64,000 nucleotides of DNA from Oleisolibacter albus (GTDB lineage: Bacteria > Pseudomonadota > Alphaproteobacteria > Azospirillales > Azospirillaceae): the NCBI RefSeq assembly GCF_003336875.1, contig NZ_QGNJ01000003.1, forward strand, positions 186,001 through 250,000, given 5' to 3'. The notes beneath the pieces were generated by a model that saw only the letters and a program-made list of their open reading frames with translations, was not told where the DNA came from and made no database searches. Of this stretch, positions 883 through 20,259 are shown piece after piece (positions within the stretch are counted from its first letter, which is position 1; the number at the start of each line of letters is the position of its first letter). The translations under genes and the position numbers were made by a program.

Positions 883-3800
883 TCATTGCAGGGTGCTGTC
901 CTTGTCGTCCTTCGGGTCGTCCACCAGTTCCAGCAGCAATTCAGTGCGGGTGGTGGGGCGGTCGCGGCTGGTCAGCTCCTTCACCGCCGCATCCACTGCC
1001 GCCGTGGCGCCCAGGGACTGGACCTGGACACTGTTGCTGATGCCACCCTGGGCGACCATCCCGAAGCTCGGGCCGGAGACATCGAAGTTGGCGGCGTTGG
1101 CCACTGCCGCGGCGGCGATGGACAGGGTGCCGCGCACCCGCACGCCGGCATCGCCGGCATCCACCGTACCGCGCGGGGCCAGCAGGGCCACCGAGGGCAC
1201 CTGATCATCCTCCGTGTCCGGATCGAAGGCACCGATGCCGGCGCCGCTGGTGCCGGCTTGGGCATCCACCAGATAGACCGGGCCGGGCTGGGTGGTGATG
1301 GTCACCGGCGGATAGTTGGCGCTGGTCTTGGGTCCCTGGCCGGCATTGAGGTCGCCATTGGAGGACCAGAGGATGATGTTGTCGCCGGCCTGGGTGAACA
1401 GGCGCGACTGGTTCAGCACCAGACTGCCGTCGGTGAAGCTGTAGATGCTGCCACCGCGCAGGCTGAGGATCCCCTCGAGGCCGGAGGGGATGGAGATGAT
1501 GGTGCTGGTGTAGACCGTATTCTGTCCGGGAATGCCGGAGATGAAATCGTCCGTCCGCGGCCGGCCCAGCAGCAGGTTGGTCAGCGCACTGTTGCGGCGC
1601 TGGATCTGCTGATCGGTGCGCACGGTGGAGCCGGCCAGGATTCGGCCGCCAGGGCCGAGGATGCGGATATCGCCGCCCCAGCCGGTCTGGATCGTGGCCA
1701 GGCGCAGATCGAGATCACCGGTGGATTTCGTCTCGCCCACGGCCCCCAGCCCGCCGCTCAGGCCGTTCTGGGTGTAGCCCAGGCTGGCCGGGAACAGCAG
1801 GTTCACGGCGGTATAGCCACGGGAATATTGCAGGTAGGAATTGCCCTTGGGATCGGCCGCCGCTCCCAGCTCGTTGAAATAGACCTTGTCGATCAGGAAG
1901 CGGCGCTGCGTCAGCACATCCAGGCTGGTGAAGGCCTCATAGGCCTGCTGGAAGCTGGGGCTCTGGCCGGCGGCCACGCCCTTGGCCGCCAGTGCCTCGG
2001 GATGCTCGGCCTGCATCCAGGCGATGAGGATGGGGGCATAGAGCGGCTTGTCGCGGAAGACCTCCGTTTCCTCCACGGTGAAGCCGGCGACGGTGCGGAC
2101 CGTGCGCTTCTGCTCGAACAGATCATCCTCCAGCTTGTCGAGATTGGCCGGGTTCAGATAGGTCTCGCGCAGCGCGCTCCAGTCGGCGCCGTTGCCGACA
2201 CCGAAGAAGGTATAGAGGTCGGTGCCGCCGGCCGCAGCCACCAGGCTTTGCAGATAGGGGTTCATCTCGGCCCCGACCGAGAGGATACCGCCGCCCAGGT
2301 TCATGTTGGACGTGGACCAGGAGTTCCCGGATCCGTTCGACAGGAAAAGACCGATCTCGGCACTGGAGGCGAAGGGTCCCAGATCGCGCCCGGCTTCCAG
2401 GAACAGGGCGCCGGAGCCGCCGATCATGAACAGGTTGCCGGCCACGGTGGGGCGATAGTCGCCCGTGACCACGGCACCGTTGCTGTTGACCAGCCCATAA
2501 GGCGAGCGCCGCGCCAGGACGGAGCTGGCGGTGATATCGCGGCCAGCGGTGATACGGCTGATATCGTCAGCGCCGAGATTCTGGCCGATGAAGACCATGT
2601 TGACGATGTCGTTTCCGGCGCTGATCCGGGCCTGCTTCGGCAGGAACAGCGACAGGTTGCTGATATCGCCGCCGGCCGCCATCCGCACCGGGCTGTTGTC
2701 GCGGTTGGTCAGGAGAAATTCACTGTGGTTGTAGCGCTTCTGCGCCTCGCTCTGGCCCGGCAGGATATAGGGCAGTCCCCATTGCCGGCCGTTGGGGGTG
2801 GGATTGCTGCTGGCATTGCTGAACAGGACGTTGGAGAACAGGCCGGGCAGATAGCCGGGATCGCTGTCCTCCATATTGATCACCACGGCGCCGATGTTGC
2901 CACCGGCCAGGACCTGCAACTGGCCCGTGGCGTCAGGATAGAGGGTCAGGTGCCGAGTTCTGCCGGCTTCAGGCATGGAATAGAGGTCGACATCTCCGGT
3001 TACCGACAGCACCGACAAGCTGCCGGGCAGCAGATCGTAGGTCTTGCTGGATTCGCTTTCATACGCTTGATAAGCGACATCTCCGTTGGCGCGGAGGTCG
3101 AGGCTGGCGCCGGGGGCATAGGTGAAATCCAGGTTTTCCGTATTGTTGTTGTCACTGGCGGTATAGGTTGCCACCTCCGACAGGAACAGACTGCCGCCGG
3201 CGCTGACAGTGACATCGGCATCATAGAGGCGCAGACGCAGACCGTTGGTGACCGGCGGGAAAGCACTGCCAGTTGCCGATGCAGTAGCGACATTGCCCAG
3301 CGCGCTTAGGTCGGCCCGGCCAGACGCTACGTCCACCCGATTGCCCAGCAGTGACTTGCCAGCGCTGGCTGTGACATCTCCTCCGCCGAACAGGTACAGC
3401 AGGTTGGTACTGCCAGCACTGGATTTAACGGTGCTGGCCGCGGCGACCAGGGTGACGTCGGATATATTGCCGTTGGCTACCACGGAAATATCCCCGCCGC
3501 CGAGCGCGCCAAAGCCCTCAGGAAAGCCCATCAGCGCGCAGGCGAGGCTGGTACAGGTCGCGTTGACCACAGCACCAGCCTGGATTGTGCCCTGGGTCGT
3601 CTGATAAGCGGAGCCGCCCAAACCGTAAGTGGAGCTTTGACTGTTCACCCGCACACTTAGCACATCGCCACCTGCGGTCACGCGGATATCGCCACCGTCA
3701 GTCAAATAGTAGCTGCCAGCCGCAGGTGTAAGGCGGAAGGCTGGGAGGTTAACCACGGCGCCGGTCAGCGGGTCGGACAGGGTCCGTGCCGGCAGCGATG

Positions 3801-6800
3801 TCAGCTGCCGTCCCGCCGTATAGACCGCGGACCCGCCCAGGGTCCGAGTGTTGCTGCCTTCACGGAAGGTGGGCAATGCCGTGCTGGGATCATAGAGCTG
3901 AACATTGCCGGCGGCGCCCAGGCGGATCGTTCCAGTTCCCGTGCGCACGAAAGTCTGCGCCGTATAATAGTTGGTGGTTCCGGAAATGCTCCAATTGACC
4001 CGCGACAATAGCGAGACGCCATTGCTGGTCAGGTCCGTGCGGGTCAGCAGCCCGGCCAGAATGCCGATGGGAACATTGCCGACCTGGGTGATCGTGAAGT
4101 TCAGGCCGTAGGCCGCATAAGCATTGGTATAGGCTGCGCGCTCGGTTGCCGACAGTTGGTTGCCATTATAGTTGAGTGCGACCCTGGCATTCGTGCCGTA
4201 GGTGGCGGCATACCAAGCGGCCCATGCGTTCAGAGCCAAACCACCGGTCGGCAGACCGGTCGCACTTGTAGTATCGAACAGCACATCGCCGGTGAAGCTG
4301 GCCGCAGGGGTTGTCACCGTCCCGGATGTGGCTCCGCTTATCATCAGCCGGCCTGTGGAGACAGGCAGAGTACGATCCGGTGCCGTGCTGTCACTGGCTC
4401 CGGCCACCAGCCGATAGGACCAGCTGTCGGCCGCGCTGCCGTCGCCCAGAGAGGGGAACAGTTGGGCGGCATTGAAGGGGCGGGCACTGTCCGTCGGCGA
4501 AACGGCATTGGCATCGGCCGTCAACCGGACCGGGTTGTAGATGGCAGGTGGATTCGCACTATCGTTGTTGACGAGCACCAGCGTCGTTCCCGTCAGCGGG
4601 ATGATGCGGTTACCGGTCTGGCCGCGCAGATAGGTTAGATTCTCTCCATCGGCGAAGGTGAAGAAGCCATCATTCACAGCCTTGTTGATGTTCACGTCCC
4701 CGCCGGCGCGCAGGGCCAGGATACCGGCTGCCCCCCCGACCGTGCCGTCGACGCGGTAGAGCAGGCCCGTATGCCGGGAGAAGATGTCACCTTCGCGGCC
4801 GCTGACGGCCACATGGGTGCCGTCAGCCAGACGGGTGATGGAGCCGTCGGCAACACCGGCGGCATAGTCCACGGCACCGGCGGCCAGGTTCCAGGGCGCA
4901 TCCAGACTGATGCTGCCGCTGTAGGACAGTTCCACGCCCGGCGCGGCGGTGAAGTTGGTCAGCCGGGCGAGGCTGCCGATGGAGCCGGAGACATCGAAAT
5001 CCTGGACGAAGCTGACCATGGTCTCGTGTCTGCCGCTGGCGTCGCGGTCGGCCAGGAAGTTCAGCCCGCCCCGGACATCATAGCTGAAGCCGGTGCTGTC
5101 GCTGTAGCGCAGCCCGTCCTGGCCGGTGGCCGGGTTCAGGCTGGCGGTGCCATTGCTGATGGTGACACCGGTATAGGTGCCGCTGGCGGCAACCTGGGCC
5201 AGATCCCAGCGGCGGTACCCTTCGAGCACCACACTGGCAGCGCCGCGGATGCTGCCGACGGCATCGGCCACGGCGACATTGACACTGCCGGATCCGGCGC
5301 TGCCGATAACGGGCGTGCGCAGATGCACGCTGCCGCCCCGGTCGCCGGTGACCACCTGATAATTGACCACGCCGGCGCGCACGATGCGCACCAGCCGGTC
5401 GCCCGGCCGTCTGGCCGAGACATCGATGACGGCGCCGCTGTCGATGCGGATGGCGCCGCTGCGGCCGCTGATGGCACCGTCGGCATCGGTGCTGGTGCTG
5501 CCGGCCAGGAAGTCGGTGCCCAGGGTGACGGTGCCGCCGCTGGCGCTGCGGCTGTCGTCATTGCGGCCCACCGTGTCGCTGCCATAGCCCTTGGCCGACG
5601 CATCGATGATGGCGGTGGAGTCCAGCGTGACGCCGCTGCGGCCATAGAGGCTGACATCGCCGCCATTGATGCCGGAGGTGTCGATGGTTCCGGCGATGCG
5701 GATAGCGCCGCCGTCGGCGGTCAGGGACAGGCTGCCGGTCTTGACGCTCTGCCCGGCCTCCAGCACCAGATCACCGCTGCCGCTGCGCAGGCTGATGCTC
5801 TTGTCGAAGCCGGCCGCGGTGCCGGAGCGGACGAGGGCGGACACGTCCAGGGCCGCCCCGCTGTCGATGGCAAGGCGGGCGCCGCCCTCCGGGGCCTTGC
5901 CGTCGATCCGCCCGTCCAGGGCCACGCTGCCGCCGGCGCTGAGCGACAGGCTGCCACCCGCCCCGCTGCTGCCGCCCACGGACAGGGTGCCGCTGCTGCC
6001 GAGCCGGATCGTGCCGGTGACGGCGGTCAGGCTGAGGCTGCCACCGGGCGCCGTAGCGTTGACCTGGTCATCGCTGGCTCCGAACCGGGCGGTGAAGCCG
6101 GGCGTCTCCACCACGGCGCCATCGCCGATACGGATGTCGCCACGGGTGGCCTTGATATCCAGCTTGCCGGCGGTGGCACGCACGCGGCTGCCGCTGATAT
6201 CGACGCTGGCACCGCTGAGGGCCAGGGACGATCCGGACAGGCCCGCGGGCAGGGTGATGCTGCCGGCCCCGGCCGTGTCGATCGACAGGGCGGCCAGGCT
6301 GGTCAGGCTGGCCTGGGGGGCGACATCGGCGCCGGCCGCTGTCTGCTCGTCGCGGTCGCCGAGATAGGGGGTATGCAGGCGCAGGTCGGCCAGGCCGGCA
6401 GCCAGGCCACCGCTGCCGCGGGTGAAGAGGCCCGCGCTGGCGCTGAGATCAAGGCCGCCGCCGAAGCCGGCCTGGGTCACCATGCCGGGGCCGACGACGA
6501 TCTCCTTCGCCGTCAGGGCCAGCTGGCCGCTGCCGCAATCGGCGCTGCACACGGCGGCGGCGCTGTTGACATTGCCCAGGGTCAGGCGGTCGGCGCTGAT
6601 GCTGACGCTGCCGCCATCGAGACTGCGCAGGGTGGGCGCGTCCAGGCGCAGCGTGCCGAAGCTGTAGCTACCGGAGGCCAGATCGATGCTGCTGCGGGCA
6701 TTGAGGGTCAGGGCCCGGCCGGTCAGCGTGGCCTGCAACGCCGGTGTCAGCACGATCCCGGTGCTGGCGCTGGCTCCCAGGGTGATGCGGTCGGCCCCCA

Positions 6801-9800: not shown

Positions 9801-12800
9801 CCAGGGCCAGGCTGGTGCTCTCCCGGTCATAGGCATCCGTGGGAATGGCGGCGGTGAGGACGCTGTAGACATTGCCACCGCTGGCCAGATCGCGCAGGGC
9901 CGTTGCCTGGTCAGCCGTCAACAGCGCGGCCCCGGGCAGGGCGGTGTGGGTCAGGCGCAGCGTCTGCCCCTCGCCGATCTCCAGCGTCTGGGTGGCCAGC
10001 ATGGCATGATAGCCGCCCAGATTGTTCAGCGTGTTCGCGAACAGCGCGGTCTTGTTGGAGGTGATGGTGTAGGTGGCGAAGCCATGGGTCGCCAGGAAAT
10101 CCAGCGGCAGCTGTGTGCCCGTCTGTGCGGCCACGCCGTCGCCGAACGAGAATTCCGGTGTGACCAGGGAGAAGCTGCCGCCACCGGCGAAGCCGTCGCT
10201 GCGGATGCGGGCTGCCGGGGCGATCAGCACCCGTGCCCGCACCTTGTCCGGGTTCCTGGGCAAATTGCCGTCGTCCGGTCCGGTCGCCACGCCTGTCGAT
10301 GTCTGGCTGGTCCGTGCACCCTGGCTGGTTGCCCCCGTAAAATAGGCCGTGTCGGCGGAGAGGCTGAGATTGCCGCCCCTGCCGGACAGGTCGAACCCGG
10401 CATCGGCCAGGACCCGGCCGCCGGCCGACAGGTCCAGCAGGGCGGTTTCGTTGACCAGCACACTGCCGCTGACATCGACATACTCGCCGGTCCGTGAGAG
10501 GCCGACGGTGGCCGCTTCCGTTCCCGCCTTGGGGGCGACGACATTGGCAGCGGCGGTGATGGTGATGCTGCCGCCATCGAGATAGGCACCGCCAGTGACG
10601 TCCTCGTTGCTGCGGTCCCGCAGCAGATTGACCCAGCGCCCGGCCACCGACAGCGCGCCATCGACGATGACATCATAATCGCCGGCCATGGGCAGATTGC
10701 CTCTGGTCGGATTACGCAGTGGCTCGAAGATCGAGCCGGTGGCTCCGATCGCGTTTCCAGCCAGAGGCGTGTCGTTGACAGCGGTGTAGTAGGTGCCCAG
10801 CCGCGCCGTCTTCAGCAAGATCTCGCCGGAGGGGGCGGTGATCGCGGCGCCCTTGGCGATGGTGATGGTCTGGCCGGCCAGCACGTCGAGGATGCCGCCA
10901 TAGCCCAGCCGCACATGGGCGCCGTCGGCGATGGTGAAGGTTCCGTTGGTGGTGACGGAGACCTGCCCCAGCCCCGTCAGCATGGAGTCCGACAGGGTGA
11001 CCACGCGCAGGCGGGCGTCGAGCGCCGCCTGCTGCTCGGCATTGCGCGTCGGCGCCGTCAGGGTCACGGTCCCGGTGGCGGCATCCATGCTCACGGTCTG
11101 CAGCAGCGGCAGATCGCCGGCCAGGGCGCCGTAAGCGCCCGCCGCGACGATCTCCACATCGCCACCGCCGGGATAGGGGTTCCCGGTGCCGGAGCCGCGG
11201 CCCAGATCGTTGATGACCAGCAGGGCATCGGCCGGCAACTCGTCGCTGCTGCCCTGCATGTGCCGCCGATCACCCGTCAGGCCGGATCTGGCCGTCCCCT
11301 CCTTGCCCAGGCTGGCCTGGATACGGCCGGCATAGGCTTCGCCATAGAGAGTCCCGTCCAGCACTTGGCTGGAGCCATAGATCAGCACGGCACCGGCGTC
11401 GGCGCCCAGGGCATAGGGGCTGGTCTGGCGATAGATGTTGCTGAGCGGATCACCATAGGTGGTGCTGACGCCCCAGCGCGGCTGGGTGACGGTGGTGCCG
11501 GTATAGATGCCGACATACTGCACGTTGGGATCAGCGCTGCCGATATCGACAATGCTGCCGTCGGCGGCGATCAGCTTGGTGGTGCGGACCGGCCCGCCTT
11601 CGAACCGGGTCCAGCCGCCGGAAACATCCAGGCTGGCGCCCTGCTTGATCACCACGCCGGGGCCGGGGGTCAGGCCATTGGCCGGACGGCTGCCGGAGGT
11701 GGGAACCGTGCCACCGGCGATGGTGATGGTCCCGCCACTGGTCATCAGTTCGGCTGCTGTTGCGCCCACCTGCTCGGCATAGGCGGCGGCATCGATCAGC
11801 GGTGAGCCGACCCAGCGGGTGCCGTCGGCGCGCACACCCGACAGCCGCGGGTCCACATAGACGGTGGCGCCCTTCAGGACACTGCCATCGCGGTAATTGG
11901 GGGTGTTGGCCAGATCATTGCCGGTCACCGGGCTGATCTTGATCAGGTTGCGGCTGGCCGGAATAGTCACGTCCTTCAGGCCGGACGCATCGATCACGGC
12001 GCCGCTGTCGATCAGCACCTGGCCGCCGCTGATGGCGGACTGGGACACCGTGTCGAATGCGTCCGTGCTGGCACCGCCGGTGGTGGTGTTGAAGCCGATG
12101 CGGATATCGGCTGACGGGGCGTAGATCAGGCTGCCACCGGCGATCTCCACGCCGACGGTGGTTTTGTCGACCCCCGTGGTGGTGGGGGTGCCGTCGATCT
12201 GGATGAAGGACGGGCGGAAATTGGCCAGCGAGGTGCTGTCGGTGGGCAGGGCGGTGGGGCTGCTGTCGGGCAGGATGCTGATGACGCTGTTGGACAGCAG
12301 CGACACGATGGGGGCGCTGAGCTTGATGGCGCCGTTGCGCGATACCGAGGTGCTGGACAGCAGAACACCGTTATTGACGACCACACCCGCTTCCTGATCC
12401 AGCTGACCGGTTCGGGTGTTATAATTGGCCTTGCCGGCCAGCATCTGGATGGACCCGCGGGCGGATTCGATCAGGCCGGTGTTGGTGGCCACACCACCGA
12501 GGCCGGTGGTGCTGGTGTTCGTGCTGGCGGCGCGGAAGGTCAGCCCATGGAAATTCTGGCTTTCCGTGGAACTGAGCTTGATGTCGTTGGGATTGGCCTC
12601 GTTGGTATCGCTTTTATTGACACCGATATAGGCCGTTCCAGCCAGAAGCCCGATATCGCCATTGGCCGCGGACAGGCTGCCGGCATTCTTCACGGTCATG
12701 CCGGACAGGACCAGATAGCCGTCGCCGGTGCTGGTCAGGCGCGCCCCGGCGGCCACCTCCACCGTGCCGGTTCTGGTGGTGGGGGCGGTTTCCAGCTGCA

Positions 12801-13653
12801 GCCGGGTCATGCCATCCAGGAATTCCTGGCTGCGCTCCACCAAGGTGCGCTGGACCTGCACATTGTTGACGGTCTTGGTCCGGGCACCGATCTCCAGGGT
12901 GGAGGCCACCAGCGAGCGGGTGTTGACCTGGGACGAGCCGGTGAACAGCACGCCATTCTGATTGAGGATCATCACCAGCCCGTCGGCCTTGATCGAACCG
13001 GCGATGGTGCTGGGAGCGGTGGAGCCGACAACGCGGTTCAGCACGCTCCAGTCGCTGTTGCCCTTCTGGTCGAAGACCAGGGTGGTGTTGCTGCCGACAT
13101 TGAAGCTGTTCCAGGACAGCACGGCGCGCGACTGGGTCTGGTCCACCGTGACGGTGGTCTTGCCGTCGCTGGTGCTGCTCTTGACCTGTTCGGCGGCGCC
13201 ATCCCAGGTCAGCAGCCCTTCGAGATTGGTCGGGTCATTGTTGCGGCGTTTGTCGGTGACCGGCATCAGGCCGCCGGTGGCGATCCCGTCGGGAATACCC
13301 GAACCCGCGGCGATGGCAGCAGCCCGTGCCGCGGCCTGCGCCTGGCGGGCAAGATCGGCGGAGGCACCCACGCGGCCCTGGATCTGGATCTGCCGCAGCA
13401 TGGCATTCTGCTGCGCTCCGGTCAGCACGGCGGAGCTGCCGGCCCCGGCGGGCAGGGCGGCGGCCATGGCCTTGCCCTGCCCGCGCACGCTGGACAGGCT
13501 CTGCGCCGCGGCCGGTCCGGACGGCACCATGCCTGCCATCAGCGCCAGCGACCCCAGGGCCAGAGTGCGGGCCAGGGCCGCACGGCTGGTTCCTCCCAGC
13601 AGTCCGCGCTTGAAGGGGGAGCACGGGCGGATCAAGGCGGTGGTGCCGGACAT
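883..13653 (-). CDS. Giant filamentous-haemagglutinin-type two-partner secretion exoprotein (TpsA)
   Basis: This 4,256-residue protein is predicted to be secreted and to form a long right-handed beta-helix fibre acting as an adhesin. An extended signal region with a hydrophobic stretch at about 26-50 ends in PAAAQS. The TPS/haemagglutinin N-terminal domain follows at about 140-260, with SWNSFNVG (180-187), VLNRVVG and NQNGVLF (231-237), a variant of the usual NPNG motif. Thousands of Gly/Ser/Thr-rich residues in short repeated strands follow (GGSL, LSAGG and VDISGG types), then a distinct C-terminal quarter resembling the conserved end of FHA-family outer-membrane proteins. The start is an ATG with GGAG 7 bp upstream. 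It is the last gene of a six-gene operon with its transporter, ExbB/ExbD/TonB and a porin. Size and layout recall PdtA of Pseudomonas aeruginosa. The ligand is unknown. Large open frames on the opposite strand are shadows. Confidence 0.93.
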   Translation of the reverse strand: MSGTTALIRPCSPFKRGLLGGTSRAALARTLALGSLALMAGMVPSGPAAAQSLSSVRGQGKAMAAALPAGAGSSAVLTGAQQNAMLRQIQIQGRVGASADLARQAQAAARAAAIAAGSGIPDGIATGGLMPVTDKRRNNDPTNLEGLLTWDGAAEQVKSSTSDGKTTVTVDQTQSRAVLSWNSFNVGSNTTLVFDQKGNSDWSVLNRVVGSTAPSTIAGSIKADGLVMILNQNGVLFTGSSQVNTRSLVASTLEIGARTKTVNNVQVQRTLVERSQEFLDGMTRLQLETAPTTRTGTVEVAAGARLTSTGDGYLVLSGMTVKNAGSLSAANGDIGLLAGTAYIGVNKSDTNEANPNDIKLSSTESQNFHGLTFRAASTNTSTTGLGGVATNTGLIESARGSIQMLAGKANYNTRTGQLDQEAGVVVNNGVLLSSTSVSRNGAIKLSAPIVSLLSNSVISILPDSSPTALPTDSTSLANFRPSFIQIDGTPTTTGVDKTTVGVEIAGGSLIYAPSADIRIGFNTTTGGASTDAFDTVSQSAISGGQVLIDSGAVIDASGLKDVTIPASRNLIKISPVTGNDLANTPNYRDGSVLKGATVYVDPRLSGVRADGTRWVGSPLIDAAAYAEQVGATAAELMTSGGTITIAGGTVPTSGSRPANGLTPGPGVVIKQGASLDVSGGWTRFEGGPVRTTKLIAADGSIVDIGSADPNVQYVGIYTGTTVTQPRWGVSTTYGDPLSNIYRQTSPYALGADAGAVLIYGSSQVLDGTLYGEAYAGRIQASLGKEGTARSGLTGDRRHMQGSSDELPADALLVINDLGRGSGTGNPYPGGGDVEIVAAGAYGALAGDLPLLQTVSMDAATGTVTLTAPTRNAEQQAALDARLRVVTLSDSMLTGLGQVSVTTNGTFTIADGAHVRLGYGGILDVLAGQTITIAKGAAITAPSGEILLKTARLGTYYTAVNDTPLAGNAIGATGSIFEPLRNPTRGNLPMAGDYDVIVDGALSVAGRWVNLLRDRSNEDVTGGAYLDGGSITITAAANVVAPKAGTEAATVGLSRTGEYVDVSGSVLVNETALLDLSAGGRVLADAGFDLSGRGGNLSLSADTAYFTGATSQGARTSQTSTGVATGPDDGNLPRNPDKVRARVLIAPAARIRSDGFAGGGSFSLVTPEFSFGDGVAAQTGTQLPLDFLATHGFATYTITSNKTALFANTLNNLGGYHAMLATQTLEIGEGQTLRLTHTALPGAALLTADQATALRDLASGGNVYSVLTAAIPTDAYDRESTSLALGGSLELVVSSGGAILGDAGSRLTVGRLLNAGSIVIHGGTITQSASLFSYGTLDTLDARLIRGIQVEGQDITRLLNLDAGCITSNRCETRTNTGGVLIKVTGANSFRLATNAEIFGTNNTMETGYYLLGELGAMDGIVLAAGSTTDLSGISLHNPRAFGLKNGVYSALTQGRIYAGGTLEAAAPVVGQTLGGTGRGFHITIEGTRTADDGTVQSGAVLDLRGSSDRYDQLGRGSGLVQRSAYELSPVWSNGGTLSAYGGLDLGNGARISAGGGGGGASGGSLLVRDPTLSQSTGPLAADAITAAGFVNFTAVGTLTATGNVQLSLPGRFTLTGITAADVNYPAGGINSWLRAGDGTLRIDAAYVRLESAAQTASSATLGGSGSITLHGGLVDVAGGIRATGNLALISDGDLRLIGAPYSVQIRSLGTDGVLGGTLSVTGDLNLSAAQIYATTGTSFNLSAPGRTITLGRTTAVLPATPYSAGSSLTLTAKDIVQGGVLRAPLGSLTFNATGAVTLRDGSQTSVSANGLKIPYGTTTDGVEWYFTPTGGSALVAPPEKRLTINGSTVDIQTGATVDISGGGDVYAYEFVPGNTGTRDVLDRYNADRYSSGNGYLYPDGRQVYAIVPGLSDAAVAGAYDPIYSADYANLYSGSLVGQRVYLSDVPGLAAGWYTLLPAKYAMLPGGVRVVERTELAGKIAPDFHSGSLDGTVTVAGQLGTLTGTDHTLRAFDVQSQDVFLKYSKIVLTTGNDYFAKQAAHNSTTVPQLARDAGRLILAPTRSLTVNGNMLTAAAEGGRGSQVDLSAAVIDIVSTLPATPASDRLVLTAGTLSALKADSLLIGGTRVEQSDGSTLLGASRTTRPSNSAAPPVEIYTPVIASRITIANDAAHVLTAGEVLLLASGSITLADGAAIAATGTLADSRTTNYVVGRAADSANAAIAGTGALVRIANGPERLLARNGTVAGTAMLSVGAASLAGQSLLLDSSGGFSLSSDVRLSEVKSVALGADRITLGASASTGIVLTPALQATLTGRALTLNARSSIDLASGSYSFGTLRLDAPTLRSLDGGSVSISADRLTLGNVNSAAAVCSADCGSGQLALTAKEIVVGPGMVTQAGFGGGLDLSASAGLFTRGSGGLAAGLADLRLHTPYLGDRDEQTAAGADVAPQASLTSLAALSIDTAGAGSITLPAGLSGSSLALSGASVDISGSRVRATAGKLDIKATRGDIRIGDGAVVETPGFTARFGASDDQVNATAPGGSLSLTAVTGTIRLGSSGTLSVGGSSGAGGSLSLSAGGSVALDGRIDGKAPEGGARLAIDSGAALDVSALVRSGTAAGFDKSISLRSGSGDLVLEAGQSVKTGSLSLTADGGAIRIAGTIDTSGINGGDVSLYGRSGVTLDSTAIIDASAKGYGSDTVGRNDDSRSASGGTVTLGTDFLAGSTSTDADGAISGRSGAIRIDSGAVIDVSARRPGDRLVRIVRAGVVNYQVVTGDRGGSVHLRTPVIGSAGSGSVNVAVADAVGSIRGAASVVLEGYRRWDLAQVAASGTYTGVTISNGTASLNPATGQDGLRYSDSTGFSYDVRGGLNFLADRDASGRHETMVSFVQDFDVSGSIGSLARLTNFTAAPGVELSYSGSISLDAPWNLAAGAVDYAAGVADGSITRLADGTHVAVSGREGDIFSRHTGLLYRVDGTVGGAAGILALRAGGDVNINKAVNDGFFTFADGENLTYLRGQTGNRIIPLTGTTLVLVNNDSANPPAIYNPVRLTADANAVSPTDSARPFNAAQLFPSLGDGSAADSWSYRLVAGASDSTAPDRTLPVSTGRLMISGATSGTVTTPAASFTGDVLFDTTSATGLPTGGLALNAWAAWYAATYGTNARVALNYNGNQLSATERAAYTNAYAAYGLNFTITQVGNVPIGILAGLLTRTDLTSNGVSLLSRVNWSISGTTNYYTAQTFVRTGTGTIRLGAAGNVQLYDPSTALPTFREGSNTRTLGGSAVYTAGRQLTSLPARTLSDPLTGAVVNLPAFRLTPAAGSYYLTDGGDIRVTAGGDVLSVRVNSQSSTYGLGGSAYQTTQGTIQAGAVVNATCTSLACALMGFPEGFGALGGGDISVVANGNISDVTLVAAASTVKSSAGSTNLLYLFGGGDVTASAGKSLLGNRVDVASGRADLSALGNVATASATGSAFPPVTNGLRLRLYDADVTVSAGGSLFLSEVATYTASDNNNTENLDFTYAPGASLDLRANGDVAYQAYESESSKTYDLLPGSLSVLSVTGDVDLYSMPEAGRTRHLTLYPDATGQLQVLAGGNIGAVVINMEDSDPGYLPGLFSNVLFSNASSNPTPNGRQWGLPYILPGQSEAQKRYNHSEFLLTNRDNSPVRMAAGGDISNLSLFLPKQARISAGNDIVNMVFIGQNLGADDISRITAGRDITASSVLARRSPYGLVNSNGAVVTGDYRPTVAGNLFMIGGSGALFLEAGRDLGPFASSAEIGLFLSNGSGNSWSTSNMNLGGGILSVGAEMNPYLQSLVAAAGGTDLYTFFGVGNGADWSALRETYLNPANLDKLEDDLFEQKRTVRTVAGFTVEETEVFRDKPLYAPILIAWMQAEHPEALAAKGVAAGQSPSFQQAYEAFTSLDVLTQRRFLIDKVYFNELGAAADPKGNSYLQYSRGYTAVNLLFPASLGYTQNGLSGGLGAVGETKSTGDLDLRLATIQTGWGGDIRILGPGGRILAGSTVRTDQQIQRRNSALTNLLLGRPRTDDFISGIPGQNTVYTSTIISIPSGLEGILSLRGGSIYSFTDGSLVLNQSRLFTQAGDNIILWSSNGDLNAGQGPKTSANYPPVTITTQPGPVYLVDAQAGTSGAGIGAFDPDTEDDQVPSVALLAPRGTVDAGDAGVRVRGTLSIAAAAVANAANFDVSGPSFGMVAQGGISNSVQVQSLGATAAVDAAVKELTSRDRPTTRTELLLELVDDPKDDKDSTLQ

Positions 13654-13700
13654 GGGCGGGCTCCTACGGATCAGGTCGGGTCGGCGTGGCGGACGGATGG

Positions 13701-13730: not shown

Positions 13731-13736
13731 CGGACT

Positions 13737-13773
13737 GGGACGGGTGGGGCGGCCGGTCGGCGCGCCCCGTCCC
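13737..13773 (-). other. GC-rich stem-loop after the porin gene
   Basis: GGGACGGG at 13737-13744 can pair with the CCCCGTCCC end of the 13763-13773 segment. A further GGCG/CGCC pairing is possible through a 3-base bulge. It begins about 9 bp downstream of the porin stop on the minus strand and has no T-run. It may be a partial terminator or RNA-processing site setting the ratio of porin to the 12.8-kb tpsA transcript. The function is inferred. Confidence 0.4.
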
Positions 13774-13781
13774 GCCACGGT

Positions 13782-15554
13782 TCAGAACTTGGCGTTGAGG
13801 TCGATCTGCAGCACATCGACCGAGAAGGGCAGGTTGTTGACCTCATCGGCGCTGAGCCAACGGGCGTTCAGCCAGACATTGTGGAACAGGCCCAGATTGC
13901 CGCTGACCGTGTAGCCCTTGGCGTTGGTGCCGCCCAGGTGGAAGTCGCTGTCGGTGAAGGCGTCCAGCACGGCATCGGACTCCAGCCGGCGGTAGGAGGC
14001 CGACAGGTTCCATTGGAACGGCTCGGTGGTGCTGGGGTGTCCGACCGTGGCCCGCACCATCCAGCCAGTATCGCCGCCGTAATAACGGTCCGGGTCGGCG
14101 GTGTTGACATTGGTGACCGGGACATAGAACTGCCCGCTGGTCGGGGCCTTGCGCTGGCTGAAGCCCAGATTCTTGACATAGTCGCCGCGCAGATTGACGA
14201 CGCGGCCCTGGCCGATCGAGGCTTCGCCCTCCAGGCCGAGATTGAGGATATGGAAATCCTGCGACAGGCCGAAATACTGGACCTGCTTCTGCTGATCCGG
14301 GTTGGTGGCCGTGGGGAACAGCAGATTACGCAGCAGGAACAGCGTATTGCCCTTCTGCATGAAGCCGGGGCGCGTGCCGTCGGTGGCGCAATAGCTCTTT
14401 TCCGGCGTGATCTCACAGGCCGGGTCCAACCGGCCGCGCACCCCGTCGAAGAAGAAGTAACCGGCAGCCCCCTTGACTCGCCAGTGGTTCTTCTCCTCCC
14501 AACTGGCACCCAGCTGTCCGGCCCAGAGCCAGCGGTTCTCATTGTCCACCGTGGGCTTGTCAGCGGCCACGGACGGGCTATTGTTCGAGCGGAAATCCAG
14601 CGGGAAGGCGCCGGCGGTGGCGAACAGCTTGGCCCCGCCCAGCGGCACGGTGCCGGACACCGCCATTCCGTCGAAGTTCAGATCGTCGTCGAACATCAGC
14701 TCGGTGGTGAAGAAGGGGTTGGGCAGCCGGCCCACCGCCACCGTCACCGCGTCGATCGGCTTCATCTCCACATAGGCGCGGTCGAGCCAGATCTCCTTCT
14801 TGCTGAGACCACCGCCGAGCGTCTGGTTGGTGGAAACCGGGCTGCCGTCGGAGCCGGTGGCCAGACGGATGGTGGCGGTGACATTCTCCGCCACATCGGC
14901 GCTGACGGCCAGCCGCGCCCGCAGCCGGGCCACGGCTTCGCGGTCGTTCCGCGTGTTCAGCGTCGCGCCACCAGCCGGATTGGTCACCGGGTTCACATCG
15001 AGACCGCCGCCATTGTTGATGGCGTTGAAATCCAGGTAGCCGGCGAAATTGCCGGAATCATAATATTGGCTTTCCAGGCGGGCGCGCAGATCGCCGCTCC
15101 AGCGGATGCGGCGGACCCAGTCGGGGAAGCCGGGCGCGGCCCAGCCTTCCTCCTTGGCCTGCTGCATGACCTCGCCGCGCACCTCGTTCTTGATCTCGTC
15201 GCGCACGGTCTGTGGGATATAGGGCACGCGCACCGCGCCAGGGGCCACCGCCGCAGCCGCCGGAGCCGGCGGCTGCCCCTGGGGAGCAGCCCGCGCCGCC
15301 TCGGCCTTGGCCTGGGCCAGCAGGGCATCGGCGTCGGACTGGTCCAGCACGCCGCGGGCCACCAGACGCTGGATCAGCTTGTCGACAACGGCCATTTCCG
15401 GCGAGGTCTGCTGGGCCAGGGCCGGGGCGGCCGTCATGGCCAGCAGCACGGCCGCGGAGACGCCGCCGATGAGCCGGGCGCGCCGGGCGGTGCGGGACAC
15501 GCGATCCGGTCCCGCCATGGCTGCGGAGCGCAGCGACGCAACGTGAGCAACCAT
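13782..15554 (-). CDS. Putative outer-membrane porin with N-terminal coiled coil
   Basis: The chosen ATG at 15554 has AAGGAAG six bases upstream; an ATG at 15560 and a GTG at 15578 are alternatives. The product is about 590 residues. A long, Arg-containing N-terminus leads to a hydrophobic segment and ALAQQ, a plausible signal-peptidase site. A helical stretch (VVDKLIQRLVARGVLDQSDA, then an AEAARAA-rich segment and a Pro/Ala linker) follows, then a long beta-rich region with alternating aromatic strands and a terminal Phe (DLNAKF), as expected of an outer-membrane barrel. It resembles the 'putative porin' (Porin_5) family. It sits between tonB and tpsA in one transcription unit, 4 bp from the GTG alternative start to the tonB stop. 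It may be an outer-membrane partner of the TonB motor or an accessory to the exoprotein; neither is proven. Confidence 0.8.
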   Translation of the reverse strand: MVAHVASLRSAAMAGPDRVSRTARRARLIGGVSAAVLLAMTAAPALAQQTSPEMAVVDKLIQRLVARGVLDQSDADALLAQAKAEAARAAPQGQPPAPAAAAVAPGAVRVPYIPQTVRDEIKNEVRGEVMQQAKEEGWAAPGFPDWVRRIRWSGDLRARLESQYYDSGNFAGYLDFNAINNGGGLDVNPVTNPAGGATLNTRNDREAVARLRARLAVSADVAENVTATIRLATGSDGSPVSTNQTLGGGLSKKEIWLDRAYVEMKPIDAVTVAVGRLPNPFFTTELMFDDDLNFDGMAVSGTVPLGGAKLFATAGAFPLDFRSNNSPSVAADKPTVDNENRWLWAGQLGASWEEKNHWRVKGAAGYFFFDGVRGRLDPACEITPEKSYCATDGTRPGFMQKGNTLFLLRNLLFPTATNPDQQKQVQYFGLSQDFHILNLGLEGEASIGQGRVVNLRGDYVKNLGFSQRKAPTSGQFYVPVTNVNTADPDRYYGGDTGWMVRATVGHPSTTEPFQWNLSASYRRLESDAVLDAFTDSDFHLGGTNAKGYTVSGNLGLFHNVWLNARWLSADEVNNLPFSVDVLQIDLNAKF

Positions 15555-15582
15555 GTGCATCTTCCTTACGCTGTTCACTTGT

Positions 15583-16290
15583 TCATCCCCCCACGGCCCG
15601 TCCGGTCAGCATGACGGTGCGCGGAAAGCGCATGCTGGCGGGGGGCGGCTGATCGAGCGTGACCTTGGTCAGGACGGCCACCAGGGCCTCGTCCATGTCG
15701 GCAGTGCCGGATGAATCCGCCAGCTGGACCCGGGTGATCCGGCCGGCGGCGTCCAGCCACAGGGAAAAGCGGAGCTGGCCGCGGAAATTGGCGGTGCGTG
15801 GGTCCGCCTCCAGCGCCTGCTTCATCACGGCGGTCAGATAACGGCCATAGGTGCCTTCGAAGAAACCTGTGCCGGCGCCGGTACCCCCGGCCGTGCCGCT
15901 GCCCATACCGCCGCCGCCGCTGCCGGCGGCGATATCGAAACTGTCCCCGCCGGCCTGGGCCGGCGCATCCATGGTCATGCGGTTGCCGGCCGGGGGCGAG
16001 GGCGCCGGTTTCGGCGCTTCTGCCGGCTTCGGTGCGGCGCTGGGCTTCGGCGGGGGGATGGCGGTTGGCTTCTGTGGTTCGGGTTCCGGCTTGGGCTGCT
16101 GCTGCGGTGGAGGCGTCGGCGGCGGCGGGGGCGTCACCGGCAGGATGGCGGACAGCATGGTCCGCTGCCGTGTCCGGGTTGTCTCCTCCCCGGACAGCGA
16201 CCACAGCAGCGCGCCGACACCCAGCAGGACCAGGAGCACCACGCCCCGTTTCAGCCAGGTCCGGCCCCGATGAGGATGATGGGGGCTCAT
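15583..16290 (-). CDS. tonB: TonB-type energy transducer of the TPS locus
   Basis: This 235-residue protein couples an ExbB/ExbD motor in the inner membrane to an outer-membrane partner. One N-terminal membrane anchor (about 13-31, GVVLLVLLGVGALLWSL) is followed by a Pro/Lys/Glu-rich spacer (about 50-110) able to span the periplasm, a Gly-rich patch, and a TonB C-terminal domain from about 150 (YGRYLTAVMKQAL, FRGQLRFSLWLDAAGRI). It starts 25 bp after exbD in the same operon. The Gly-rich insert before the C-terminal domain is not typical of iron-uptake TonB and suggests a dedicated partner. Confidence 0.88.
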   Translation of the reverse strand: MSPHHPHRGRTWLKRGVVLLVLLGVGALLWSLSGEETTRTRQRTMLSAILPVTPPPPPTPPPQQQPKPEPEPQKPTAIPPPKPSAAPKPAEAPKPAPSPPAGNRMTMDAPAQAGGDSFDIAAGSGGGGMGSGTAGGTGAGTGFFEGTYGRYLTAVMKQALEADPRTANFRGQLRFSLWLDAAGRITRVQLADSSGTADMDEALVAVLTKVTLDQPPPASMRFPRTVMLTGRAVGG

Positions 16291-16315
16291 GGTCTGTGCC
16301 TTCGCATGGGGGGCG

Positions 16316-16732
16316 TCAGGACCCGGCCGGCGGCGGTTGCAGCTTGCCGGTGGCCAGCCCGACCTTGGTCAGTTCCAGCTTGCGCAGCAGGTCCAGCACC
16401 TCGACGACGCGGTAATAGGGCACGCCGCCGCTGCCCTTCACCACCACCGGGAATTCCGGTGTCAGCGCCTGCTGCACGCGCAGGCGCTGTTCCAGCACCT
16501 CCAGCGTGACGGGGACGGCTTCATAGAAGATGTCCCCGGCATCGTTGATGGTGATGGCCTTGGTCTGGGATTCGATCTGGGCCGCGGTGCTGGCCTTGGG
16601 CAGATCGACCTTGATCCCCTGGACCGACGCGGTGGTCATGATGATGAAGATCACCAGCAGCACGAATGCCAGATCCAGCATCGGCGTGATGTTGATCTCG
16701 TCGTAGCGCTTGCCCTTGCCCTGGACGTTCAT
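16316..16732 (-). CDS. exbD: ExbD-type biopolymer transport protein
   Basis: The 138-residue protein begins MNVQGKGKRYDEINITPMLD, the canonical cytoplasmic lead of ExbD/TolR. The single membrane helix LAFVLLVIFIIMTTA carries the essential Asp (D20) just before it. A periplasmic domain ends in VVEVLDLLRKLELTKVGLAT, also family-typical. With the ExbB-like protein encoded 10 bp upstream it forms the proton-driven stator that energises TonB. The same frame remains open upstream over the exbB gene, but homology begins only at this ATG. Confidence 0.94.
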   Translation of the reverse strand: MNVQGKGKRYDEINITPMLDLAFVLLVIFIIMTTASVQGIKVDLPKASTAAQIESQTKAITINDAGDIFYEAVPVTLEVLEQRLRVQQALTPEFPVVVKGSGGVPYYRVVEVLDLLRKLELTKVGLATGKLQPPPAGS

Positions 16733-16742
16733 GGCGGCCCCC

Positions 16743-18587
16743 TTACTCACCGGCTTGGGGGATGGCACCGAGACCGTTGCGGCGGTGCAGTTCGGCCAGA
16801 CGCCCCACCAGCCGGTCGGAGAAGACCTGCAGGCGGTTGCTGACGCTGTTGGCGCGGGTTGACAGGTAATTGTAGCCGAACAGGGCCGGGATGGCGACGG
16901 CCAGACCGGCCACGGTGGCGGCCAGGGCCGCGGCGACACCGGGGGCGATGGCGTTGACATTGACGTCACCGGCCAGGGAGATGGCGGCGAAGGTGATCAT
17001 CACACCCAGCACCGTGCCCAGCAGGCCGATGAAGGGGCCGCCGGCGATGGCGATGGTCAGCAGCACCATCCAGCGGTCCAGCCCCTCGGTCTCCTCGACC
17101 CGGGCTGCATCGATGGCGCCGCGGATCGATTCCACAGCCTCGTCCGACAGGTGCGGGTTGTGCTCTTCAGCATGTCGGTCCAGCAACTCGGCCAGTCCGC
17201 TGCGATAAATGCGGAAGAGGGCGGAGTGGCGCAGTTCGGACTGCTCGTTGGCGCTCAGCGTGCTGAGGTCGCCGCGCCGCTCGCGGAACAGCTCCTGGAA
17301 ATATTCGTCTGCCTCGACCGTGCGGTTGATGTAGCGGCTCTTGGCGCCCATCACGATCCAGGAGATCACGGCCATGATCCCCAGGACGATGATGATGGCG
17401 ACGGCATCGACGGTCAGGTTCTTCCAGATCACGCCGAAATAGCCGAAGCCGCCGGCGGCCAGCTCCTCGTCGGCGCCGAAGCGCAGCAGCGGCGTGCCGG
17501 TGCCCTGGCTGAGGCGAACGGCCTGGAAATAGGCGGCGCTGCGGGCCGTGTTCGACAGGCGCAACTCGTCGACCTCGCCGACGAAGCCGGGGATGACGGC
17601 CGGGGGCGCTGCCGCGGGATCGCTTCCGGTCGTGGGAGCACTGCCGGCGGACGTGCCGGTGACAGGAGCCGCCGGGAGCGGGGCCGGGGCGCCGCCGAGA
17701 ATGGCTGTGCCGGTCAGGACCGGTACGGCCTCGGCCAGGGTGGCGACCGCCTGGCCGTTGACATAGAGGATCAGGGCGCTGGTAGTGCCGGTGACGGCCA
17801 GATGCGTCCAATCGCTGCCCAGCGGGCCAGTGCTGGCGATGCGCTTGGGCGCGACGCCAGGCAGCTGCAGTTCGGCATAGGGGATGCCGGCGGCCAGACC
17901 CAGGGTCAGAGTTCCGGCATCGTTGCGCAGAGCATAGAGGATGGCGTCGCCGGGCGTGGCCTGGGGCTTGGCCCACATTTCCACGGTGAAGCCGTCCGGC
18001 TGGGTGATGCTGGCAGCCGGGGCCGGAATGGTCAGCGGCGCCGTGCCGGTCAGCCGCAGATCGCGTCCGGCGATGCCGGCCGTGCCGAAAGCGGCGGCAC
18101 CGTCCAGCGGCGTGCGGTTGGCCGTGGCATCCTCGGTGGTGCCGGGGAAATGGTAGACGGCCCGGTAGAGCGGATCATAGGTGCGCGCCGGAGTTCCGGC
18201 CGCCGCCGCATCCTTGTTGCCGAAATAGAGCCAGAGCTTGGTCTGGCCCGCCGGCAGCAGCTCCGGCAACTCGACCCAGATCATAGCCAGCCCGGCTCCG
18301 GGATCGTAGCTCTCGATGCGGAACGACAGCGGGGTCTTGTCGTCGGCGGCGATGAAGCGCAGGTCCTTGCCACTGGGGTCGGCGTCGGCGAAGGCGAAGG
18401 CCGCGCTGTCGAGCCGGACCAGCAGCGGAAAGCGGCGGACCGTATCCGGCAGCTGGCTGCCGGCCGCGGCCGTATCCACAGTGATTTCCTTGCGGAAGGT
18501 CCAGGCCTGGTCCCACCAGGCCTTCGCCGGGCCGGGCCCAAGCAGGCACAAGGCTGCCAGGAGAAGGGGGAGGATTCGCAGGGACAT
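16743..18587 (-). CDS. ExbB/MotA/TolQ proton channel fused to periplasmic DUF2341 and LamG-like domains
   Basis: The 614-residue protein starts at ATG 18587, chosen because it begins a clean signal peptide ending PAKA (1-23); the frame is open 22 codons further upstream. A DUF2341 domain lies at about 70-145 (DLRFIAADDKTPLSFRIE, WVELPELLPAGQTKLWLYF). A LamG/concanavalin-like domain lies at about 190-370 (TVEMWAKPQ, WTHLAVTG, LYVNGQ, GFVGEVDELRLSNTARS). The ExbB core follows: a helix at 391-414, a cytoplasmic stretch, and helices at about 506-535 and 546-572 (GPFIGLLGTVLGVMITF, AALAATVAGLAVAIPALF). Ordinary ExbB has only the last part (about 240 residues). The periplasmic part could bind a glycan or the passing adhesin and gate proton flow; that is inference. 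It lies 25 bp after tpsB and 10 bp before exbD. Confidence 0.92.
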   Translation of the reverse strand: MSLRILPLLLAALCLLGPGPAKAWWDQAWTFRKEITVDTAAAGSQLPDTVRRFPLLVRLDSAAFAFADADPSGKDLRFIAADDKTPLSFRIESYDPGAGLAMIWVELPELLPAGQTKLWLYFGNKDAAAAGTPARTYDPLYRAVYHFPGTTEDATANRTPLDGAAAFGTAGIAGRDLRLTGTAPLTIPAPAASITQPDGFTVEMWAKPQATPGDAILYALRNDAGTLTLGLAAGIPYAELQLPGVAPKRIASTGPLGSDWTHLAVTGTTSALILYVNGQAVATLAEAVPVLTGTAILGGAPAPLPAAPVTGTSAGSAPTTGSDPAAAPPAVIPGFVGEVDELRLSNTARSAAYFQAVRLSQGTGTPLLRFGADEELAAGGFGYFGVIWKNLTVDAVAIIIVLGIMAVISWIVMGAKSRYINRTVEADEYFQELFRERRGDLSTLSANEQSELRHSALFRIYRSGLAELLDRHAEEHNPHLSDEAVESIRGAIDAARVEETEGLDRWMVLLTIAIAGGPFIGLLGTVLGVMITFAAISLAGDVNVNAIAPGVAAALAATVAGLAVAIPALFGYNYLSTRANSVSNRLQVFSDRLVGRLAELHRRNGLGAIPQAGE

Positions 18588-18612
18588 TGTCTTCCTCGAC
18601 TTGGCGGGCGGT

Positions 18613-20259
18613 TCAGAATTGGGAGCGGAGATTGAAGTGCAGCCGCGGGTCATGGGCTTGAGTCACAGTGCTGTCCCGCAGTGGCCAGGCCACATCCAGG
18701 CCGCCCTGCAGATAGCGCTGCAGTTCCAGGGTGGCGCCGACGCCCACGGCGGCCAGGTCATAGCGCGCGACCTGTTCCGGCAGCGGGTCCTTGAGCCAGA
18801 CGCGCCCACCCTCCACGAAGATATGGAGCCGGGCATCGCGGATGATGTCGGGCCAGAGCGGGGCGGCGGAGGGACTCCGCAGTTCGACGGCGCCGAGCAT
18901 GCCGTCATCGCCCAGGGCCTCGGCCGAAAGATAGCCACGCACGCTGGATGCACCGCCCAGCGCGAACTGTTCATTGGAGATCAGGGGGCCGTCGGCCAGC
19001 TGGCCCGACAGGCGCGAGACCAGCTGCAGATCCCAGGGCAGCGTCAGCGTCTGCCCATAGTTCAGGGCGGCATAGACGAAGTTGGTGCGGGCATAGGCGC
19101 GCTTGTTGGCGAACTCGTCGCTGTCGCTGCCCAGCCCGCGCGTGCCCATGGTGACGCTGAGCAGCGCCGAGCCCGACCAGTCGTCAATGGCCCAGGCCGC
19201 GCTGTAGCCCGCCGTCACCGGCCAATAACGCACGGGCGAGCCGATGCTGTCCGGGCCGTAGCCCAGCTTCTCCTTGAAATCCTTGTAATCCGCCCCGATC
19301 AGGAAGGTCTGGGCGACGTCGCGGGCGTCGGGCAGCTGGTAATAGGCTCGAAGCGACACGGCACCGCCGTCGCCGACCACGGTGGCCCCGGCCAGGGTGG
19401 CGACATTGCTGTTGGAGATATAGCCGGACAGGTCCAGGCTCCAGCCGCTGCCCGGGAACGGCGCCCGGTAGGAGGCGGCGAACAGTTCGGATTCCTTGCG
19501 GTCCTTCGGCGCGACCACATAGGTCAGCGAGGCCGTGTGGCCGAGATTCCACAGATCGGCGTAGCTGATCGTGGCGCTGGCCCGCAGGGCCGTGGTGTCC
19601 TGCCCGTGGTCGTTGTTGAGATCGGCGGCGACGGACAGCGGGTTCTCGTCCTTGACGACAAGATCGACATCGATCTCGCCCGGAGCCGAACCCGGCTTCG
19701 GCACCGGCTGGATCTGGCGGCCGGGTTGTCCGTTCAGCTCGGCCAGTTCCTGCTGGGCCTGGGTGAAGTTGGGAACCGTGCCTTCCCGCAACGCCGGCAC
19801 GCCGGCCTTGATGGCATCGCCGTCGTAATATTGCGCCCCGCTGACCGTCAGCCGACCGATCCGCCCTTCGGTCACAGACAGATGGATGACACCGGCGACC
19901 ACCCGTTGCTGCGGGATCTCCACCAGCACAGTCTGGTATCCCGCCTGATGATAGGCTTCCTCCAGCGCGGCGCGCGCGGCATCGAGGTCCGCGAAACTGC
20001 GGCCCGGGCCGACATGGGGCAGGATGGCGCGCTCGATGCTGCGCACATCCAGCACGCTGTTGCCGTCCACCACGATCTCATTGATGTCGAAGGTGCGCAC
20101 GGCGGCCGGTGCGGGCGTATCGGCCCGCGCCTCCACGGCTATGGCAGCCTGCGCCAGCGTCCCCAGGCCGAACACACAGCCGAGAAGCATCCGTCGCTGC
20201 CAACGCGGCAGCGGCTTGCAACCCCAAACGCGCATCACGCGAACCCCCGTCGTCACCAT
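18613..20259 (-). CDS. TpsB/FhaC/ShlB-type outer-membrane transporter
   Basis: This is the outer-membrane channel of two-partner secretion, expected to recognise the TPS domain of the giant exoprotein and thread it outwards. From ATG 20259 (about 548 residues) a signal region ends near EARA. Two POTRA domains follow at about 56-131 (FDINEIVVDGNSVLD, EEAYHQAGYQTVLVEIPQ, IHLSVTEGRIG) and 132-205. A 16-strand-type barrel carries the family motif GGASSVRGYLSAEALG and ends in Phe (HFNLRSQF). The start is uncertain: the frame is open to 20454, and ATG 20235 is also possible; ribosome-binding sites are weak in each case. It is the first gene of the TPS operon and the promoter should lie upstream, in 20260-20800. 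Confidence 0.92.
   Translation of the reverse strand: MVTTGVRVMRVWGCKPLPRWQRRMLLGCVFGLGTLAQAAIAVEARADTPAPAAVRTFDINEIVVDGNSVLDVRSIERAILPHVGPGRSFADLDAARAALEEAYHQAGYQTVLVEIPQQRVVAGVIHLSVTEGRIGRLTVSGAQYYDGDAIKAGVPALREGTVPNFTQAQQELAELNGQPGRQIQPVPKPGSAPGEIDVDLVVKDENPLSVAADLNNDHGQDTTALRASATISYADLWNLGHTASLTYVVAPKDRKESELFAASYRAPFPGSGWSLDLSGYISNSNVATLAGATVVGDGGAVSLRAYYQLPDARDVAQTFLIGADYKDFKEKLGYGPDSIGSPVRYWPVTAGYSAAWAIDDWSGSALLSVTMGTRGLGSDSDEFANKRAYARTNFVYAALNYGQTLTLPWDLQLVSRLSGQLADGPLISNEQFALGGASSVRGYLSAEALGDDGMLGAVELRSPSAAPLWPDIIRDARLHIFVEGGRVWLKDPLPEQVARYDLAAVGVGATLELQRYLQGGLDVAWPLRDSTVTQAHDPRLHFNLRSQF

Follow-up and report, generated by a model that had tools for sequence, protein, structure and literature searches.

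A 64,000-nucleotide stretch of the Oleisolibacter albus genome (NCBI RefSeq GCF_003336875.1, contig NZ_QGNJ01000003.1, positions 186,001–250,000 of the forward strand; hereafter, the window) carries a two-partner secretion (TPS) locus in which the transporter TpsB and a giant exoprotein TpsA bearing the DUF3739 domain are encoded together with an ExbB–ExbD–TonB motor and a Porin_5 outer-membrane protein. Three results were computed for this locus and its relatives: an exceptionless co-occurrence of motor, exoprotein and porin in a genome sample, the conservation of the module, and a short C-terminal box in TpsA whose identity follows the motor set. The class is wider than one locus. Its string of genes is already in print for Pseudomonas aeruginosa; what is new is that its components occur in the same 14 of 398 genomes and that the box follows the motor set, the latter being the most useful new fact. 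We consider it an even proposition that the locus is a motor-equipped TPS whose motor set recognizes the tail of TpsA, probably through TonB.

Distribution of the motor, the exoprotein and the porin

The original prediction tied the motor to the exoprotein. A survey was made of 398 Pseudomonadota genomes drawn evenly and chosen independently of the module. The module ExbB (E ≤ 1e-50), DUF3739 and full-length Porin_5 (E < 1e-100) are each present in 14 genomes, the same 14 in every case, which belong to 8 families and 12 genera (because of a contig start in G284, ExbB is matched there over just the second half of the profile). Each genome has as many porin copies as ExbB copies: one, except in G155, which has two of both. 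ShlB-type TpsB, in contrast, is found in 165 genomes, 13 of them among the 14 module genomes (the fourteenth being G284), and 152 of the 165 lack the module ExbB. The original prediction would fall if the same TpsA class were found without the motor; this case was looked for, and no DUF3739 genome in the sample lacks a motor. Conversely, DUF3739 is present in 47 of the 48 motor genomes searched (from 50 of the 80 loci described below), the miss being a metagenome-assembled genome. The identical distribution of module ExbB and DUF3739 bears out the proposed tie: the motor is a property of TpsAs of the DUF3739 class and not of TPS at large.

When a contig database of 84,980 species is scanned for the fused ExbB, at least 552 relatives are recovered, of which the best 80 loci were kept. 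These include loci of Burkholderia, Paraburkholderia, Dyella, Luteibacter, Bradyrhizobium, Caulobacter, Magnetospirillum and Acinetobacter. TpsB is encoded in all 80, and ExbD, TonB and Porin_5 in 79, on one strand and in the order TpsB–ExbB–ExbD–TonB–porin; the single incomplete locus (L058) stops at a contig edge, and another (L064) has broken TpsB and porin frames. With all five module genes together in 79 of these loci, which are the nearest named ones, the arrangement is not due to chance.

Within the order to which O. albus belongs, DUF3739 is found in one of 82 genomes, that of O. albus itself, and 11 plasmid records, one of them rated conjugative, carry the module ExbB; this patchiness and these plasmid copies suggest that the unit spreads as a block. 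They would also be expected if the genes were merely inherited together with no functional link, which we regard as very improbable: the genes co-occur even when they lie on different contigs (in G268, the motor is on one contig and TpsB, porin and TpsA are on another), and paralogous TpsAs on contigs other than that of the motor keep the shared box described below.

The C-terminal box of TpsA

In TpsAs of this class, DUF3739 is followed by a low-complexity linker, a short hydrophobic box with the approximate consensus P-S-[IV]-I-x-V-[EQ]-V-L-G-[FY]-G, and, in most of them, a variable tail. A match at 9 or more of 11 positions is found in 77 of the 79 tails scored (the tail of L277, whose open frame ended before it, was dropped, and in L235 the motif selected by the pattern is another one, farther downstream). 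In many tails (e.g., L106, L109, L268), the box is followed by a second motif (xVQVLGxG and the like) and then by an LT..E segment.

Fourteen genomes encoding two or more DUF3739 TpsAs were compared, giving 54 within-genome pairs to set against 3027 between-genome pairs that are not taxon-matched. In 12 of the 14, mean box likeness exceeds that of between-genome pairs of equal core identity (only slightly in G418, whose TpsAs are near copies), and in the remaining two, G398 and G442, boxes are no more alike than expected, as is also the case for single pairs of G439. Motor counts, which were looked up only after the box comparison, are two ExbB matches of different score in G398 and three in G442, a Caulobacter strain (locus L073), each 15–18 kb from a DUF3739; the other genomes of this comparison have one ExbB match (eleven genomes) or two of equal score (G433). 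In addition, G155 has two motors and two unlike boxes (L113 and L119, set by hand). Mean box identity is 0.83–1.0 where there is one motor type (12 genomes) versus 0.25–0.53 where there are several motors (three genomes), a separation with a rough figure of 1 in 455 for the 15 genomes, which are not independent (6 of the 12 are Bradyrhizobium).

For 18 pairs in one-motor-type genomes with core identity below 0.55, mean identity is 0.44 in the core, 0.26 upstream, 0.96 in the box and 0.25 downstream, the flanks being 12-residue pieces that begin 2 residues from the box. Recent gene conversion is unlikely because identical residues are often encoded differently: counted over pairs, 197 of the 546 codons compared are synonymous but not the same, as are 126 of 323 fourfold sites. 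Each of six Bradyrhizobium genomes has a constant F/Y position in the box, and the distribution of this residue needs three changes on the TpsA tree, at least two of which are forced by well supported branches. As box identity in paralogous TpsAs tracks the motor set, the box is probably read by something common to these paralogs, i.e., the module. Two TpsAs with identical boxes on a Klebsiella plasmid are not counted as evidence, their tails before the box being near-identical too.

Which component would read the box was approached through partial rank correlations between box distance and component distance over 46 modules. The coefficients are 0.288 for TonB, 0.263 for ExbD, 0.225 for ExbB, 0.197 for TpsB and 0.002 for the porin; the best TonB windows lie in its C-terminal domain (0.43), with equally high windows in ExbB (0.44) and TpsB (0.43), and the porin N-terminus reaches at most 0.36. 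Short strand-forming peptides that are flexibly tethered are known partners of TonB domains, and it is this known behavior, not the correlation figures, that makes TonB the preferred candidate. The original prediction had sought the partner of TonB in TpsB or the porin; the evidence points at least equally to the TpsA tail, a candidate absent from that prediction, and the motor-linked segment of the porin is retained as the second candidate.

Proposed action of the motor and alternatives

By sequence, the window locus encodes a type Vb system: a ShlB-type TpsB with POTRA and barrel (POTRA_2, 1.4e-15, a single POTRA being called; ShlB, 4e-18) and a TpsA with a TPS domain (Pfam, 3.6e-20) and a beta-helix, as which the repeated short strands in a six-sequence AlphaFold2 model of the C-terminal part are read (predicted local distance difference test score [pLDDT] 62.8). 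From these families, TpsA is inferred to be exported by the TpsB of the locus, N-terminus first as in classical TPS. FhaC/FhaB and other classical pairs likewise combine a TpsB of POTRA and ShlB barrel with a TpsA having an N-terminal TPS domain, whereas the window TpsA has DUF3739 and those of its relatives a C-terminal box.

In the reading preferred here, TpsB would export the giant DUF3739 TpsAs N-terminus first, while the flexible tail with its beta-strand-like box would stay in the periplasm; in the same six-sequence model, the window tail has a pLDDT of about 30 and is predicted to be disordered. Recognition of the box would fall to the motor set, with the C-terminal domain of TonB as the likeliest reader, in the manner of TonB boxes, and the proton motive force harnessed by ExbB–ExbD–TonB could then be spent on finishing, securing, releasing or pulling the exported filament. 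Porin_5 may be a dedicated outer-membrane partner held to the machinery by a conserved N-terminal segment. The location of the box, its reader and any use of force in export, anchoring or movement are inferred. The wider proposal, that a Ton-type motor is addressed to a type V substrate by a C-terminal box, that proton motive force acts mechanically, through the cell envelope, on a surface filament, that one motor serves as many as seven TpsAs bearing its box (G437), and that differing box sequences separate the motor–TpsA pairs where a genome has several motors, is put forward tentatively and with more doubt than assent. Genes for peptidyl-prolyl isomerases near 41 of the 80 loci and Skp-like genes near 6, though none in the window, count in favor of the preferred reading.

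The motor proteins have the features of a Ton system, i.e., a MotA/TolQ/ExbB-type channel and an ExbD with its membrane Asp. The C-terminal part of the window ExbB matches TolQ/ExbB in the PDB, and the Asp of ExbD is found as PMLD or PLVD in 87 of 93 frames, the remaining 6 not being matched by the regular expression. The window TonB alone scores 19.3 bits for TonB_C, below the Pfam cut-off of 24.6. The protein contains a hydrophobic stretch near its N-terminus, a stretch rich in Pro and a C-terminal part that is conserved over 32 sequences, and with the profile of these sequences the C-terminal part matches HasB (6.6e-4), TonB (4.6e-3) and TolA (0.028) in the PDB, better-scoring top matches being due to low complexity in unrelated proteins; this profile identifies a TonB C-terminal domain.

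Several points weigh against tail recognition and the use of force. The counterpart of the box in the window TpsA, RTELLLELVDDP, is degenerate and fails the box pattern with a score of 7, and the score of 8 in G426 is weak. The pattern was derived from the same tails that were later scored, the comparison covering DUF3739 TpsAs, and co-variation does not single out TonB as the box reader. The ExbB family is without the membrane Glu of the third transmembrane segment of TolQ/ExbB (APGIAEAL becoming APGIAAAL and the like); the Glu-less motif is found in 87 of 94 frames, the other 7 being unreadable by regular expression. In P. aeruginosa, mutants of tpsA, tpsB, the tonB homolog and PA0696 are still virulent in a zebrafish test with VreI overexpression (PMC2729926), and type V translocation, described as powered by no energy source, has been achieved in a reconstituted system with no input of energy (PMC5422565).

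Alternatively, the motor could act on the POTRA domains of TpsB, opening or gating the transporter. TpsB adjoins ExbB in most relatives, and a branch separates motor-linked from plain TpsBs in two quick trees (43 versus 33 rows and 23 versus 29 rows; supported by the Shimodaira–Hasegawa-like approximate likelihood ratio test only). The stretch between signal peptide and POTRA, delimited by a hydrophobicity rule and not by a signal-peptide program, has a median of 25 residues in motor-linked TpsBs (n = 43) versus 53.5 in plain ones (n = 52), and its shortness suggests that many motor-linked TpsBs are without the plug-helix region. However, a short stretch also occurs in 4 of the 52 plain TpsBs, including L204, the best-scoring of all plain TpsBs, and TpsB does not always adjoin the motor: the gene order in G019 and G360 is TpsB–TpsA–ExbB–ExbD–TonB–porin, and the two are on separate contigs in G268. 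Gating of TpsB is on this evidence distinctly unlikely.

The porin bears on a further alternative. The window protein matches Porin_5 (Pfam, 2e-177), and a PDB search with a porin profile gave nothing convincing. Motor-linked porins carry, after a linker of variable length, the segment V-R-V-x-Y-V-P-[EQ] and a conserved helix; over 38 sequences Tyr120 and Pro122 are invariant, and a strict regular expression finds the segment in 88 of 92 frames. The four misses are L002, which is truncated before the segment, and L156 (YVPA), L157 (YISQ) and L164 (FVPV), which carry altered forms. In an AlphaFold2 model from the 38 sequences (pLDDT 78.9; predicted template modeling score 0.72), a helical hairpin and a low-confidence linker precede the segment, which leads into helix 123–143, and 16 long strands are predicted; the segment is presumably periplasmic. 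Shorter Porin_5 relatives occur in five genomes without the module, none of which has the segment. A short Porin_5 relative without a motor (L185:4166-5504) stands beside genes that by eye resemble pstS and pst permease genes; in L188 the neighbors look different.

TonB might energize the porin through the N-terminal segment to import a nutrient captured by surface-located TpsA, much as haem passes from HxuA to HxuC. The one-to-one match of Porin_5 with the motor and the absence of the segment from the five motorless relatives agree with this, as does the induction of the P. aeruginosa locus by phosphate starvation (PMC7035377, PMC4971064). On the other hand, the unit encodes no plug-bearing TonB-dependent receptor by Pfam, its outer-membrane proteins being ShlB and Porin_5; TpsA, not the porin, carries the motor-following box, whose partial correlation is 0.00 for the whole porin (though 0.36 at the porin N-terminus); and pho boxes in the window are not above chance (5 matches at ≤3 mismatches versus 3.5 expected). 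Uptake is held to be unlikely.

In many relatives, the unit comes after genes for a VreA-like protein (with STN and TonB_2 by Pfam in L024 and L063), an extracytoplasmic function (ECF) sigma factor and a protein of the FecR/DUF4880 type (L024:5517-7839, L063:4326-7985, L290:939-3238), which is not the case in the window. TonB-type proteins could report export status to the sigma factor via the VreA-like protein, with its STN and TonB domains, and a FecR-like anti-sigma factor. A Dyella and a Bradyrhizobium encode proteins with STN and TonB_2 ahead of the unit, the Dyella sigma and FecR genes are confirmed by Pfam, and a similar set precedes the unit on a Klebsiella plasmid. Yet VreA, sigma and FecR matches lie within 10 kb in only 42, 45 and 60 of the 80 loci, whereas the motor is in all of them, and profiles of the relatives' sigma, FecR and peptidyl-prolyl isomerase genes match nothing in the window. 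Such signaling is quite improbable as the role of the motor.

The original prediction had also placed the locus in a distinct subclass to which the pdt locus of P. aeruginosa (PUMA3/VreI regulon) belongs, and this agrees with the published descriptions (PMC7035377, PMC2729926, PMC4971064). That locus contains pdtB, exbB2, exbD2, tonB4, the putative porin gene PA0696, PA0697, the YbjN gene PA0698 and the PpiC gene PA0699, and its Ton system is uncharacterized (PMC7035377); phdA, pdtB, exbB2D2, tonB4 and PA0696–PA0701 are transcribed from one promoter (PMC4971064), and tpsB occurs together with exbBD in other genera (PMC2729926). Judged from printed gene order and not from its sequence, the pdt locus shares TpsA, TpsB, ExbB, ExbD, TonB and porin with the window, with the same order from TpsB to porin (PMC7035377). 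Unlike in pdtA–phdA–pdtB…PA0699, TpsA follows the porin in the window, which also differs in the pho box and profile results given above.

HxuCBA of Haemophilus influenzae likewise adds to a TPS pair a third protein, which is located in the outer membrane and linked to TonB (PMC5422565). HxuC, however, is a TonB-dependent transporter, whereas the unit described here has a Porin_5 as its third protein and includes genes for the motor. Type IX secretion, in which a motor (PorLM/GldLM) and outer-membrane proteins handle substrates bearing a signal at the C-terminus, serves here as an analogy only; the unit differs in having ShlB and Porin_5 in the outer membrane, with no SprA-type translocon or PorV among its proteins. 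DUF2341 is listed among N-terminal extra domains of unknown function on ExbB/TolQ-type channels (PMC12505986), and a term search of that paper's main text gives no mention of "two-partner" or "hemagglutin". No motor-driven TPS is described in the titles or abstract openings of the papers listed in the literature searches, which leave most subscription journals and all bioRxiv preprints outside.

As the DUF3739 exoprotein was never found without a private motor in the sample, the class offers a natural system for asking whether a motor can act on a type V substrate. DUF3739, Porin_5 and the DUF2341 domain on ExbB, whose roles were previously unknown, are likely parts of one machine, and a substrate can be proposed for the uncharacterized exbB2–exbD2–tonB4 genes. 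The findings suggest that this secretion pathway, generally held to work without a motor, also exists in a variant assisted by one.

The window locus and its neighbors

Open frames and Pfam confirm the six tightly packed minus-strand genes of the original prediction, transcribed in the order TpsB, DUF2341–LamG–ExbB, ExbD, TonB-like protein, Porin_5 and TpsA (Table 1). Adjacent genes overlap or are separated by at most about 25 bp, except for a gap of 128 bp between porin and TpsA. A signal-peptide-like start suggests that the ExbB start codon lies near 18587.

Table 1. Features of the motor-equipped TPS locus (window positions)
Feature	Position	Strand	Basis
TpsB transporter, POTRA_2 and ShlB	18613..20259	-	Pfam; open frame extends to 20454
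ExbB with N-terminal DUF2341 and LamG-like domains	16743..18653	-	Pfam Laminin_G_3, MotA_ExbB
ExbD, membrane Asp kept (TPMLD)	16316..16732	-	Pfam; ATG placed from translation
TonB-like protein: hydrophobic stretch, Pro-rich stretch, C-terminal domain	15583..16290	-	Profile comparison
Porin_5, predicted 16-stranded barrel and N-terminal helical hairpin	13782..15578	-	Pfam; AlphaFold2 model
Conserved porin segment, VRVPYIPQ and helix, between flexible linker and barrel	15144..15233	-	Alignment of 38 sequences
TpsA exoprotein, 4256 aa	883..13653	-	Open frame and Pfam
TPS secretion domain of TpsA	12481..13203	-	Pfam; residues 151-391
Predicted helical insertion in TpsA C-terminal beta-helix	1795..2181	-	AlphaFold2 model, 6 sequences; residues 146-274 of modeled piece
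DUF3739 of TpsA	1057..1386	-	Pfam; residues 4090-4199
Degenerate counterpart of TpsA C-terminal box, RTELLLELVDDP, in predicted disordered tail	913..948	-	Alignment
Second TonB-like gene upstream of unit; membership uncertain	22399..23049	-	ORF/Pfam

The window copy of the module ExbB is the sole match in the O. albus genome, which has two further TpsA–TpsB pairs; in short loci around these, TpsA and TpsB adjoin. GC content is uniform over the window and gives no sign of foreign origin. The second TonB-like gene lies about 2 kb upstream of TpsB, and a TonB_C gene is likewise found upstream of the unit in Sphingomonas sp. QA11 (L004:5107-5736). A type II secretion gene set adjoins the module on a Cupriavidus plasmid (L291, 1398-15800), and in P. 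aeruginosa the Hxc genes are beside the corresponding locus (PMC2729926). Just past the end of TpsA, the window encodes an asparagine synthase domain protein (127-735, plus strand).

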